Positions 8,549 through 24,301 of a DNA stretch of 64,000 nt are shown in pieces. The notes below the pieces were generated by a model. That model ran no database searches. It saw only the letters and a program-made list of their open reading frames with translations, and had not been told where the DNA came from. Location: NCBI GenBank assembly GCA_017523325.1, contig JAFWWO010000064.1:1-64000 (forward strand). The letters run 5' to 3'. Numbering within the stretch: the stretch's first letter is position 1; each line of letters opens with the position of its first letter. The position numbers and the translations under genes were made by a program. The DNA is from Anaerotignum sp. GTDB lineage: Bacteria > Bacillota > Clostridia > Lachnospirales > Anaerotignaceae.

Positions 8549-9340
8549 TCATTCCTCCGGCACCTTGCCGCCGCCGGTATAAGGGGTATATTCCCTGCCC
8601 CGCACCTGCACAAATTCCAGTTCCGGATAACGCAGAGCCGTCAGGTATCCGCCATAAACACAGCCTTGGTCAATATCTACCGTACGGTTAATCATCTCCG
8701 GCTTTTCCGCCACCGTATGCCCATAAACCACAAAGGGCTCGCCATCATACTCCTGCGCCCAATCCAACCGCTCCGGCTTCCCGTTTTCATCAAAGCGCCC
8801 TGTGGTTTCGCCATACAGGCAGACTGCCCGAATTTTATTGGAAAACCTGCCGATGGACTCCCCCCGCAGACCGCCATGAACCACCGCCAAGCGCTTTTTA
8901 TCCAAAAGCAGATAATAGCATTGGCTTTCATAGCAGGCCATATAGCGGTTACGAAATACCATACGCTCCTCCTTCGGCAGTTTCTCCAATTCCGCTACCG
9001 TATTCTCCAGCCCATGGGAAATATGCACCCGATTGCCCAGAAAATAACGGTACAGCTTATTACAATGGTTCCCATGCACCCAAAACGCCCCGCCGTATGC
9101 CACCTGATCCATCCAGAAATTCAGGCATTTCAAATTTTGCCAGCCCTTATCCGCCACATCGCCTACGGAAATCAGCCGCCGCCCCTCCGGGTGGATATAT
9201 GCGTTTTCTCCCTTGGTGTAGCCCAGCTTGCCGATGAGTTCCATCAGCTCATCATAACAGCCATGGACATCACCGATGATATCAAATTTATTTTCACGAA
9301 ATTCCAAAATACGAAATTCCCGCTCCTGTTTTCCCTTCAT
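8549..9340 (-). CDS. PrpE/ApaH-like metallophosphoesterase
   Basis: Calcineurin-like phosphoesterase of about 263 residues, related to PrpE and symmetrical Ap4A hydrolases or to PPP-type protein phosphatases. The two-metal motifs are in order: IGDVHGCYDEL, VGDVADKG, WVHGNHCNK, AVVHGGL and VYGHT. The GNH motif is followed by Cys rather than the common Asp or Glu. ATG at 9340 has GGGAG six bases upstream; an in-frame start at 9427 would place the first 29 residues inside a structured repeat and is unlikely. A candidate structured leader lies upstream. Confidence 0.82.
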   Translation of the reverse strand: MKGKQEREFRILEFRENKFDIIGDVHGCYDELMELIGKLGYTKGENAYIHPEGRRLISVGDVADKGWQNLKCLNFWMDQVAYGGAFWVHGNHCNKLYRYFLGNRVHISHGLENTVAELEKLPKEERMVFRNRYMACYESQCYYLLLDKKRLAVVHGGLRGESIGRFSNKIRAVCLYGETTGRFDENGKPERLDWAQEYDGEPFVVYGHTVAEKPEMINRTVDIDQGCVYGGYLTALRYPELEFVQVRGREYTPYTGGGKVPEE

Positions 9341-9378
9341 ATTCGGCTCCCTTTGTTTTTCCTTCGGTATGGTATGAG

Positions 9379-9430
9379 CAGGCTTTGCCCTATGGGTAAA
9401 CATTCCTAAACAGCCTGCCGTTTGCAAACA
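9379..9430 (-). repeat. Degenerate partial copy of the branched hairpin repeat
   Basis: The stretch around 9380-9410 repeats the plus-strand series GGCTT(T/C)GCCCTATGGGTA..CATT..TAA.CAG seen in the full element at 9499-9530, with substitutions and without the right arm of the long helix. It lies between the full copy and the phosphatase start codon. Confidence 0.6.
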
Positions 9431-9460
9431 CCCGACTATTCGCCTACTTTCTTGCCTTTC

Positions 9461-9582
9461 GCCGTGCGTATTCGCAGGCTTCGCCTGCTCATCACGGGCT
9501 TCGCCCTATGGGTAGGCATTTATAAGCAGGCGAATGTGTGCAAGCCCACCTTCGCCCGCTTACAAATGCCTACCCGCACGGC
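9461..9582 (-). repeat. Branched hairpin repeat, copy A (candidate structured RNA)
   Basis: Plus-strand layout: outer arm GCCGTGCG (9461-9468) pairs with CGCACGGC (9575-9582). Inside are a hairpin GCAGGC-TTC-GCCTGC (9474-9488), a small hairpin GGGC-TTC-GCCC (9496-9506), the box TATGGG, and a 25-bp helix (9510-9534 with 9551-9575) closed by a loop containing TGTGCAAGCCCA. The two mismatches of the long helix, A9522-C9563 and A9528-C9557, are A-C on the plus strand but U-G on the minus strand. A second copy with different arm sequence is at 23705-23831. There is no T-run, so it is not a simple terminator. Confidence 0.75.
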
Positions 9583-9599
9583 TCATTGCTTTCGTGAAT

Positions 9600-9605
9600 A
9601 TTGTA
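9600..9605 (-). promoter_or_regulatory. Possible extended -10 box before hairpin copy A
   Basis: Minus-strand TGGTACAAT matches an extended -10 element, with TACAAT five of six to consensus, but no good -35 box is found. Transcription from here would start about 10 bases before the outer arm of copy A and run into the phosphatase gene. Confidence 0.35.
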
Positions 9606-20430: not shown

Positions 20431-20687
20431 AAAGAAAAGCCCCGATCCGAAGATCAGGGACGATTGAACCGTGGTACCACCCTAGTTACAGCAAAAATGC
20501 CGTCGCTCAAAGCCGTTAACGCCGACCTACGCCACGACATACTCCGCTTTTCCGCCGTGGGGCCGGTTCCGCAGAACCGAAAAGACTGCTTCCACGCATC
20601 GCACCGAGGGGCTTCCACTCTCCCCCTCTCACTGGACAGGCCGTCTTGCGTGTACTCCTTCTTTCCATAGCCTTTTTCCTAATAATG
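20430..20687 (-). promoter_or_regulatory. T-box riboswitch of alaS
   Basis: The minus strand shows the T-box sequence AGGGTGGTACCACGG (20469-20483), which binds uncharged tRNA, followed by the terminator stem GTCCCTGATC/GATCGGGGC and TTTTCTTTT (20431-20461). The 5' part folds into an extended stem I. Low charging of tRNA-Ala should favour the antiterminator and switch on alaS. I could not fix the specifier codon with confidence; the gene context implies an alanine codon. Confidence 0.93.
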
Positions 20688-22206: not shown

Positions 22207-23571
22207 TTATGAAGGGTCATATTTCTTTCTGCCGGAGGCGCCTGGAATCCCCATGCCTTCCCGATATTTCGCTACGGTACGGCGGGAAATCCGTATCCCC
22301 TCCGCCGTCAGCTGTTCTGTCAAGGCTCTGTCGCTGAGAGGCTTTGTTTTATCCTCCTTATCAATGAGGGTACGCAGACGTTGGCGGATACTATCCGCCG
22401 AAATTGTTTCGCCCTCCGCCGCCATGGTTTTGGAGAAAAAGGCATGGAGGGGGAATACGCCCCGTTCACACTGCAAGTACTTCTCCTTCACGGCACGGCT
22501 GACGGTAGATTCATGAAGCCCCAGCTCCTCCGCCACATCTGCCATACGCAAAGGGGCAAGCCGGCCTTGGGGGCTTAAGAAAAAGGCGCTTTGTTTTGCA
22601 ACGATACATTCCGCCGTTTGTTGCAGGGTGCTTTCCCGTTTGGCAATACACTGTAATGCCCATTGAGCCTGCTTCAATTTGCGGGCAATATATTCCTCCG
22701 TTTCCGGAGCGGCATCTTCCCGCAACAGCTTTACATAGGTATGGCTGATTTTCAGGCGAGGCAGCAGGTGGTGGTTCAGGGAAACCGTCAATTCCTCGCC
22801 TCTGCGTTCCACCAGAATATCGGGAACAACGTATTCCACGGGGCGTTCTCCCCGAAAGCCACTGCCGGGCTTCGGCTGACAGGTACGAATTTCCGTCAAT
22901 GCCGCCGTAATTTCCGTCAGAGAAACCTTCAACCGCTTTGCCAGATAGGACAGGCGGTTTTTTGCCAGCTCGTCCAGATAGTCCGCCACAAGGGTCTTGG
23001 CTAAGGCAGAGGCATTTTTTTGCTCCAGTTGCAGCAAAAGACATTCCCGTAAATCCCTCGCCCCAACACCGGGCGGATCCAAGGTCTGGAATTGGTGTAA
23101 AAGGCTTTGAGCCTGCTCCTTTTGCAGGCGATATTTCTCCGCCGCCGCTTCCAATGCGTCCGCCTCCAGATAACCGCTTTCCGCCGTACTTTCCGCCAAA
23201 AAACGCAATACTCGTTTTTGATTCTCCTCTATTTTCAAAATATTGATTTGAAACAACAGATATTCCCGCAGGCTTTCGGCATCTTTTCTGCCAAAACGTG
23301 CATTCTCCCGTTCCTGTTCGTTTTCCTGCTCCATGCGGTAATAACTGCGGTTTTGCTCATCGGCCTCCTCAAGCCATTGGAGCTTTTGCAAAAGCTTTTC
23401 TTCCCGCTCCTGCACCGCAGGCTCCTCGCCCCACTCCAGCAGGGGGTTCTCCTCCGCCAATTCCTTGACGTACTCCGAAAGGGCAAGGGTATTCATTTGC
23501 AGGATTTCCACCGATTGCTGCAACCGCCGGGATAATACCTGCTTTTGGCTAAGCTGTAACGATAAATCCAT
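22207..23571 (-). CDS. rpoN: RNA polymerase sigma-54 factor
   Basis: Alternative sigma factor for -24/-12 promoters, working with AAA+ activators. The 454 residues have the glutamine-rich region I (LSLQLSQKQVLSRRLQQSVEILQMNTLALSEYV), an acidic region II, core-binding and HTH regions (ADVAEELGLHESTVSRAVKEKYLQ) and the C-terminal RpoN box (RISRRTVAKYREGMGIPGA). AAAGGAGG precedes the ATG. No sigma-54 activator is in this window. The gene is preceded by a branched hairpin repeat that may form its RNA leader, and the MocR gene follows after 50 bases. Confidence 0.96.
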   Translation of the reverse strand: MDLSLQLSQKQVLSRRLQQSVEILQMNTLALSEYVKELAEENPLLEWGEEPAVQEREEKLLQKLQWLEEADEQNRSYYRMEQENEQERENARFGRKDAESLREYLLFQINILKIEENQKRVLRFLAESTAESGYLEADALEAAAEKYRLQKEQAQSLLHQFQTLDPPGVGARDLRECLLLQLEQKNASALAKTLVADYLDELAKNRLSYLAKRLKVSLTEITAALTEIRTCQPKPGSGFRGERPVEYVVPDILVERRGEELTVSLNHHLLPRLKISHTYVKLLREDAAPETEEYIARKLKQAQWALQCIAKRESTLQQTAECIVAKQSAFFLSPQGRLAPLRMADVAEELGLHESTVSRAVKEKYLQCERGVFPLHAFFSKTMAAEGETISADSIRQRLRTLIDKEDKTKPLSDRALTEQLTAEGIRISRRTVAKYREGMGIPGASGRKKYDPS

Positions 23572-23630: not shown

Positions 23631-23678
23631 CCGCCGTGGGCCATTCGCAGCACATAACACGGCTCATCTCGGGCAGTC
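23631..23678 (-). repeat. Partial copy of the branched hairpin repeat
   Basis: 48 bases matching 23705-23752 except for a short block in the middle (CACATAACACGGC against CACATGGTGCTGC). The inner hairpin is replaced by CACGGC, which pairs with the preceding GCCGTG. The long helix is absent. It stands between the full copy B and the rpoN start codon. Confidence 0.65.
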
Positions 23679-23704
23679 CACTTCCTCTGGTTTCCCGCTC
23701 ATTC

Positions 23705-23831
23705 CCGCCGTGGGCCATTCGCAGCACATGGTGCTGCTCATCTCGGGCAGTCGCCCTATGGGATTCCGGTTATAGCCATACAGCCATGTGCAAGCACAGG
23801 CTATATGGCTACAACCGGAATCCCGCACGGC
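23705..23831 (-). repeat. Branched hairpin repeat, copy B (candidate structured RNA)
   Basis: Same skeleton as 9461-9582: GCCGTG (23707-23712) pairs with CACGGC (23826-23831). The inner hairpins are GCAGCAC-ATG-GTGCTGC and GGGC-AGTC-GCCC. After TATGGG comes a 26-bp helix (23760-23785 with 23799-23824) around a TGTGCAAGCACA loop. The helix arms share only their terminal GGG/CCC with copy A, yet are complementary to each other. Both helix mismatches (A23772-C23812 and C23781-A23803) are G-U pairs on the minus strand. It lies about 135 bases before the rpoN start. Confidence 0.75.
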
Positions 23832-24301
23832 TTGTTGTCTACGCTAAGTGTATCACATTCTCCGCAAAAGATGCAAGGCGGCAGACCCCTCCTATGAAAA
23901 GACAGTCTTTTTTCGGCTTTTTGCGATTATTTTGTCAATTTATCCGAAAAAGCAACTGGAAAACCCTATGGATTATGGTAATAAATAAACATTTACTTTT
24001 ATAGATAATAAGTGTACACTAAAGTCACACAAAATTCGCATGCAAACAATTTATCCGAAAACACCTATGGTTTTTGGCATATTTTGCAGCCTACGGAGGA
24101 TTTCGTTTTTTTGCAAAAAACAACATTTAGTGAAATTTCTTTTGGTACAAAAAGTTTTTTCGCTTTTTTTCTGCAAAAATATTGTGAAATTCTTAATTTT
24201 GTATTAAAATATTGCTGTTATATATAGCTATATTTTTATAAAAGTATAACTCATTACCGTGCTTTCCCAAGCACAAAATCACTTGAACAGAGGGGGATAA
24301 T
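23832..24301. other. A/T-rich region before the rnf operon
   Basis: 470 bases without a supported gene. The distal 300 bases are markedly richer in A and T than the surrounding coding regions. They hold the probable rnf promoter (24182-24210) and a small hairpin GTGCTT-TCCC-AAGCAC (24259-24274) in the leader. No known riboswitch class was recognised. Near 23850-23900, on the minus strand, lies the region where an rpoN promoter would be expected, but no strong boxes were found. Confidence 0.5.
24182..24210 (+). promoter_or_regulatory. Probable sigma-A promoter of rnfCDGEAB
   Basis: TTGTGA (24182-24187) and TAAAAT (24205-24210), spacer 17, about 90 bases before rnfC. Several other A/T-rich boxes nearby make the assignment tentative. 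Confidence 0.45.

Follow-up and report, generated by a model that had tools for sequence, protein, structure and literature searches.

Clostridiales-1 (RF01699) entered the literature in 2010 as a probable RNA with no role assigned (PMC2864571). Its entry in Table 1 of Weinberg et al. 2010 reads y / n / n, that is, probably RNA and probably not cis-regulatory (PMC2864571). Rfam types the family as sRNA, and no later functional work on it was found in the literature searched. Among other dispersed non-coding repeats, REP/BIME palindromes and IS200/IS605-mobilised elements form hairpins and are inserted without target duplication. REP elements carry a tetranucleotide as their hallmark. IS200/IS605-type elements are inserted 3′ of a short motif, likewise without duplication. 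Pneumococcal BOX elements are short structured repeats scattered over the genome; they are built of modules, with internal units in tandem, and are co-transcribed (PMC3049150). They occur at the ends of genes, stop codons among them, and beside T-boxes, and BOX-type repeats are over-represented between convergent genes (PMC3049150).

Layout and fold of the two elements

The window is the whole stretch of 64,000 nucleotides of Anaerotignum sp. DNA that was analysed. It contains two elements, copies A and B, which were found where a preliminary description of the sequence had placed them. The scores below refer to R1, a covariance model built from ten aligned copies with a short calibration, and to the Rfam model of RF01699.

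9461-9582, minus strand: structured RNA core of copy A (fold z −10.5; R1 128.3 bits; RF01699 39.6 bits, full length), made of the outer stem GCCGTG/CACGGC, a long hairpin with a GCUUGC tip, a GGGC..GCCC hairpin and an AUGAG-stem-CGAAU hairpin
9508-9575, minus strand: long variable hairpin of copy A, arms of about 27 nt, tip GCUUGC
9583-9599, minus strand: conserved 5′ leader of copy A (ATTCACGAAAGCAATGA, minus strand), predicted to contain the transcription start
9600-9605, minus strand: −10 box at copy A, TGG-TACAAT; probably part of the host gene rather than of the element
9376-9443, minus strand: partial second copy (apex, 3′ arm, GGGC hairpin), downstream of copy A in the RNA, by sequence
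8552-9340, minus strand: calcineurin-like phosphoesterase of 263 aa (Pfam PF00149), co-oriented, downstream of copy A
23707-23831, minus strand: structured RNA core of copy B, laid out as copy A (fold z −9.4; R1 110.5 bits; RF01699 21.8 bits)
23847-23852, minus strand: −10-like box at copy B, TGATACACT, probably the host rpoN promoter
23633-23679, minus strand: partial second AUGAG module, downstream of copy B in the RNA, by sequence
22210-23571, minus strand: sigma-54 factor RpoN (Pfam PF00309, PF04552, PF04963), co-oriented, downstream of copy B

The order in the minus-strand RNA is 5′ leader, outer stem, long hairpin with the GCUUGC tip, CAUAGGGC..GCCC hairpin, AUGAG-stem-CGAAU hairpin, and outer stem. 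The conserved unit extends about 17 nt past the outer stem (GTTCACGAAAGCAATGA, minus strand). The transcription start at copy A is predicted from the position of the −10 box, and the leader sequence is also found in most copies of this genome. The phosphoesterase gene has an ATG start with GGGAG, 120 nt beyond copy A. The common parts that had been described, namely the outer arms, two small hairpins, TATGGG, the TGTGCAAGC apex and CCCGCACGGC, were all recovered in A and B. The long arms were said to share only the terminal GGG/CCC; these bases are indeed shared, but an aligned TTGTA is common to both copies too.

Folded alone, copy A has an energy of −70.6 kcal/mol on the plus strand (z −8.9) and −81.3 kcal/mol on the minus strand (z −10.5); the values for copy B are −74.8 (z −8.8) and −84.5 kcal/mol (z −9.4). 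No shuffled sequence reaches the native folding energy of either copy.

Two other RNAs were recognized on the minus strand of the window: a T-box leader (RF00230, 98.2 bits, positions 20453-20677) and a bacterial RNase P RNA of class A (284 bits, positions 92-433). In two congeners (L113 1371-1760, L133 1373-1761), element-like hairpins lie inside stretches matched as T-box leaders, recalling the pneumococcal BOX/T-box composite.

Strand and covariation

An unbroken long helix forms on the minus strand only, where 11 G-U and 2 A-C oppositions are counted over ten copies. As the helix is continuous there and G-U outnumber A-C, the RNA is taken to be the reverse complement, and the orientation given in the preliminary description is reversed.

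In the ten-copy alignment, 94.7% of the pair cells are standard-paired. Both sides are changed in 25 pairs, of which the long helix contains 20, and in 63 cells; none of 500 shuffles reaches these values. The counts come from related sequences with the structure taken from one of them, but the margin is large. When the partner was slid by 1–3 columns as a control, at most 9 pairs had changes on both sides. Covariation and wobble bias show that base pairing in the minus-strand RNA is under selection, which maintains the fold. This bears out the initial proposal of a selected structure with matched changes. The word interchangeable was misleading for the arms, most of which are homologous and change by compensated drift. 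Because intermediate copies link A and B, the arms have drifted by compensated steps rather than been swapped. The minus-strand wobble bias, the adjacent promoter and the co-orientation of the next gene favour RNA over single-stranded DNA, although sequence alone does not settle the matter. The possibility that the arms are captured phage sequence was rejected, as exact 20-21-mers of the arms of A and B had no match in viral contigs and the arms are related between copies.

Copies in the genome and in relatives

A pattern search found the element core scattered over the genome. The covariance-model search that had been proposed as a check was carried out with R1 and yielded 17 near-full-length copies scoring 92–140 bits, plus truncated ones, in the 1.66 Mb assembly, a draft that is 80% complete. 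The expectation of a family with many copies is borne out by these matches. The core sequence of the window type is also present in two Lachnospiraceae MAGs (L129, L130). Several R1 matches of 40–75 bits in other genera were left out, as they could belong to other branches or be hairpins of a generic kind.

Tandem arrangements were also encountered. Behind a full copy upstream of uppP (L086 1591-1810; L262, contig C54 of this genome), the AUGAG module is repeated in four units with a period of about 75 nt. A congener (L131) has three tandem AUGAG units with a period of 109 nt.

A divergent branch of Clostridiales-1

It had been thought that no described family had such a layout, which was wrong: judged by its motifs and their order, the A/B-type element is a divergent branch of Clostridiales-1. 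The RF01699 model scores copy A, a further copy (C2) and copy B at 39.6, 31.6 and 21.8 bits, all below the gathering cut-off of 48 bits; the three match model positions 1–166 with their parts in the right order. Long hairpins alone draw spurious matches to miRNA families at scores similar to those of RF01699. Such matches are generic to any long hairpin and were discarded. Because the score is below the cut-off and hairpin matches are generic, membership rests on the identity and order of the motifs.

The GCUUGC tip of the long hairpin, which is the RF01699 consensus, is exact in 8 of the 10 aligned copies and has one change in the other two. The AUGAG-stem-CGAAU hairpin is exact in 9/10, and the same module is found at RF01699 loci. 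RF01699 members of the order and genus carry the same tip and the same module in the same order. RF01699 is matched in all nine genomes of the genus, above the cut-off in eight, and in the reverse search R1 weakly recovers two RF01699 members. The third, 3′-terminal hairpin of RF01699 (GGAUUG..CAAUCC) is absent from the copies of this genome, in which a GGGC hairpin stands ahead of the AUGAG module.

Two other resemblances were set aside. UGAUGAG..CGAA recalls the hammerhead ribozyme, with a score of 17.5 bits of 37, but the core C of CUGAUGA is a G in these copies. A likeness to retron msr-msd was weighed on layout alone and dropped.

Promoters and gene orientation

In 17 of the 22 copies of this genome, a hexamer with at most one mismatch to TATAAT starts 21–27 nt ahead of the outer stem, against a mean of 1.4 and a maximum of 4 copies in control windows. 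Gene orientation was read from draft genomes in which a simple ORF rule defined the genes. In this genome, 18/20 copies point in the same direction as the next gene (p 4e-4). The next gene is also co-oriented at 46 of 63 RF01699 loci (p 3e-4), which were picked from high-scoring matches, several per genome, and are not fully independent. Of 15 RF01699 relatives in short gaps between co-directional genes, 14 lie directly at the upstream stop codon and not at an arbitrary point of the gap. The genes downstream of the copies, mostly named by eye, are unrelated (rpoN, phosphatase, pth, uppP, tmk, glgB, permease).

A TTTTTGTGGTATGAT-like stretch precedes the same phosphoesterase gene in several element-free congeners, and −10-like TGATAAAAT or TGGTAGAAT boxes are found upstream of rpoN in element-free congeners.

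At RF01699 sites, the pairs that would extend the outer stem into the host flanks are in weak excess (a mean of 1.56 against 0.90, p 0.0004); such an extension is not claimed, as a count of the pairs in the first six was not significant (p 0.06).

Empty and filled sites

The site of copy A is empty in all seven congeners having the phosphatase gene, and that of copy B in the six whose rpoN start was read. The copy at uppP is missing from all four congeners with close uppP orthologues. Two of these four share 24 identical bases (AGGAAAAAATAAGAATTGCAAGAA) and the −10 box up to the junction, and the filled and empty sequences diverge exactly behind TATAAT, so the uppP promoter is older than the insertion. 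The promoter is plainly kept by the empty sites at uppP; it is plausibly kept at A and B, where the shared stretch is shorter. Dispersed copies with orthologous empty sites are as in mobile non-coding (MITE/REP-like) elements.

In another genus, 30 genomes were read at the purB site, and 3 of them have it filled. Upstream of purB in L232, L233 and L251, at what seems the same site, the arms of the long hairpin are wholly different while the AUGAG region is kept, which points to fast turnover of the arms.

As to a target-site duplication, no direct repeat was found beyond those of shuffled pairs (p 0.5). A search for Y1 transposase in the nine RF01699-carrying genomes of the genus found it present in four and absent from five, with two matches in this genome; this transposase is not consistently linked to the element.

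Interpretation

It is considered probable that the element is a dispersed, probably mobile RNA cassette that forms the 5′ end of the mRNAs of unrelated genes. The copies would have arrived by insertion just 3′ of the −10 boxes of existing promoters, insertion being supported by the orthologous empty sites, and would have spread by transposition of some kind. Transcription of the host gene is predicted to begin within the cassette, so that the mRNA would carry a folded 5′ leader. The most likely effect is that this stable leader would be tolerated, being placed at the greatest possible distance from the ribosome-binding site; it may also shield the 5′ end of the mRNA from 5′-to-3′ decay. Within operons, at the upstream stop codon, RF01699 relatives would act as intercistronic linkers. 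The weakest step is that the AUGAG/CGAAU loop and the GCUUGC tip would probably be bound by a protein of spread or RNA handling.

The number of copies, the empty sites, the partial copies in tandem and the patchy spread could also reflect a purely selfish hairpin repeat of DNA or single-stranded DNA (REP/MITE-like), in which the RNA fold is incidental. The insertion mode of IS200/IS605-type elements is compatible with insertion behind TATAAT, and two Y1 transposase matches exist in this genome. This reading is rather unlikely, as the elements are co-oriented with the next gene and lack a consistent transposase link; the wobble bias of one strand is a weak point against it, since single-stranded DNA tolerates such bias too. 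Free-standing genes for trans-acting small RNAs, each with its own promoter, are distinctly improbable. At the tested sites the promoter appears to be that of the downstream gene, co-orientation with the next gene is strong and the distance short, and in operons the element lies between the stop codon and the following start. The discrete fold, the promoter at most copies in this genome, the unrelated downstream genes and the y / n / n entry of Weinberg Table 1 (PMC2864571) would nevertheless fit such genes.

Still more doubtful is a ligand- or protein-sensing, riboswitch-like cis-regulator of one regulon. The consistent position in the 5′ leader and the two highly conserved loops are set against the lack of a function common to the downstream genes and the turnover of sites between species, and an unsystematic look revealed neither a conserved alternative terminator nor conserved ribosome-site pairing. 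That an unrelated RNA family has converged on the Clostridiales-1 layout is very improbable: the sub-cut-off RF01699 scores, the additional GGGC hairpin and the missing third hairpin speak for it, but the loop motifs are identical and in equal order, the genus and the niche are the same, and intermediates occur in congeners.

For the mobile RNA cassette, an extension to the whole family is possible and is proposed tentatively. Clostridiales-1 and the branch of the window would be mobile structured-RNA cassettes inserted at two joints of transcripts, behind the −10 box and at operon stop codons, where they would serve many unrelated mRNAs as a folded 5′ end or as a linker, with compensated drift continuing in their helices. 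Such a class, if real, would call for a targeting process able to recognise the boundaries of transcription or translation. What is new is a divergent branch of Clostridiales-1, evidence of insertion at orthologous sites, and a sharp genomic niche, behind a −10 box or at a stop codon and in line with the next gene. With this niche and with empty and filled sites at hand, the role of Clostridiales-1 becomes testable.

Comparison with known systems

The element resembles RF01699 in its outer stem, its variable long hairpin tipped with GCUUGC, its AUGAG-stem-CGAAU hairpin, its many copies per genome, its occurrence in Clostridia and its leader position. It differs by the extra CAUAGGGC..GCCC hairpin, the lack of the third hairpin and the sub-cut-off scores; moreover, the copies of this genome lie behind −10 boxes, whereas RF01699 relatives lie at stop codons. 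Dispersed hairpin repeats and insertion without target duplication are shared with REP/BIME and IS200/IS605-mobilised elements, from which it departs in having no consistent Y1 transposase and in a 27-bp helix that drifts with compensation. By analogy of behaviour, the nearest known analogue is the pneumococcal BOX element. No relation in sequence to BOX was noticed. Both are short, dispersed, structured repeats with tandem internal units, but unlike BOX, with its excess between convergent genes, the window-type elements lie upstream of genes and in line with them.
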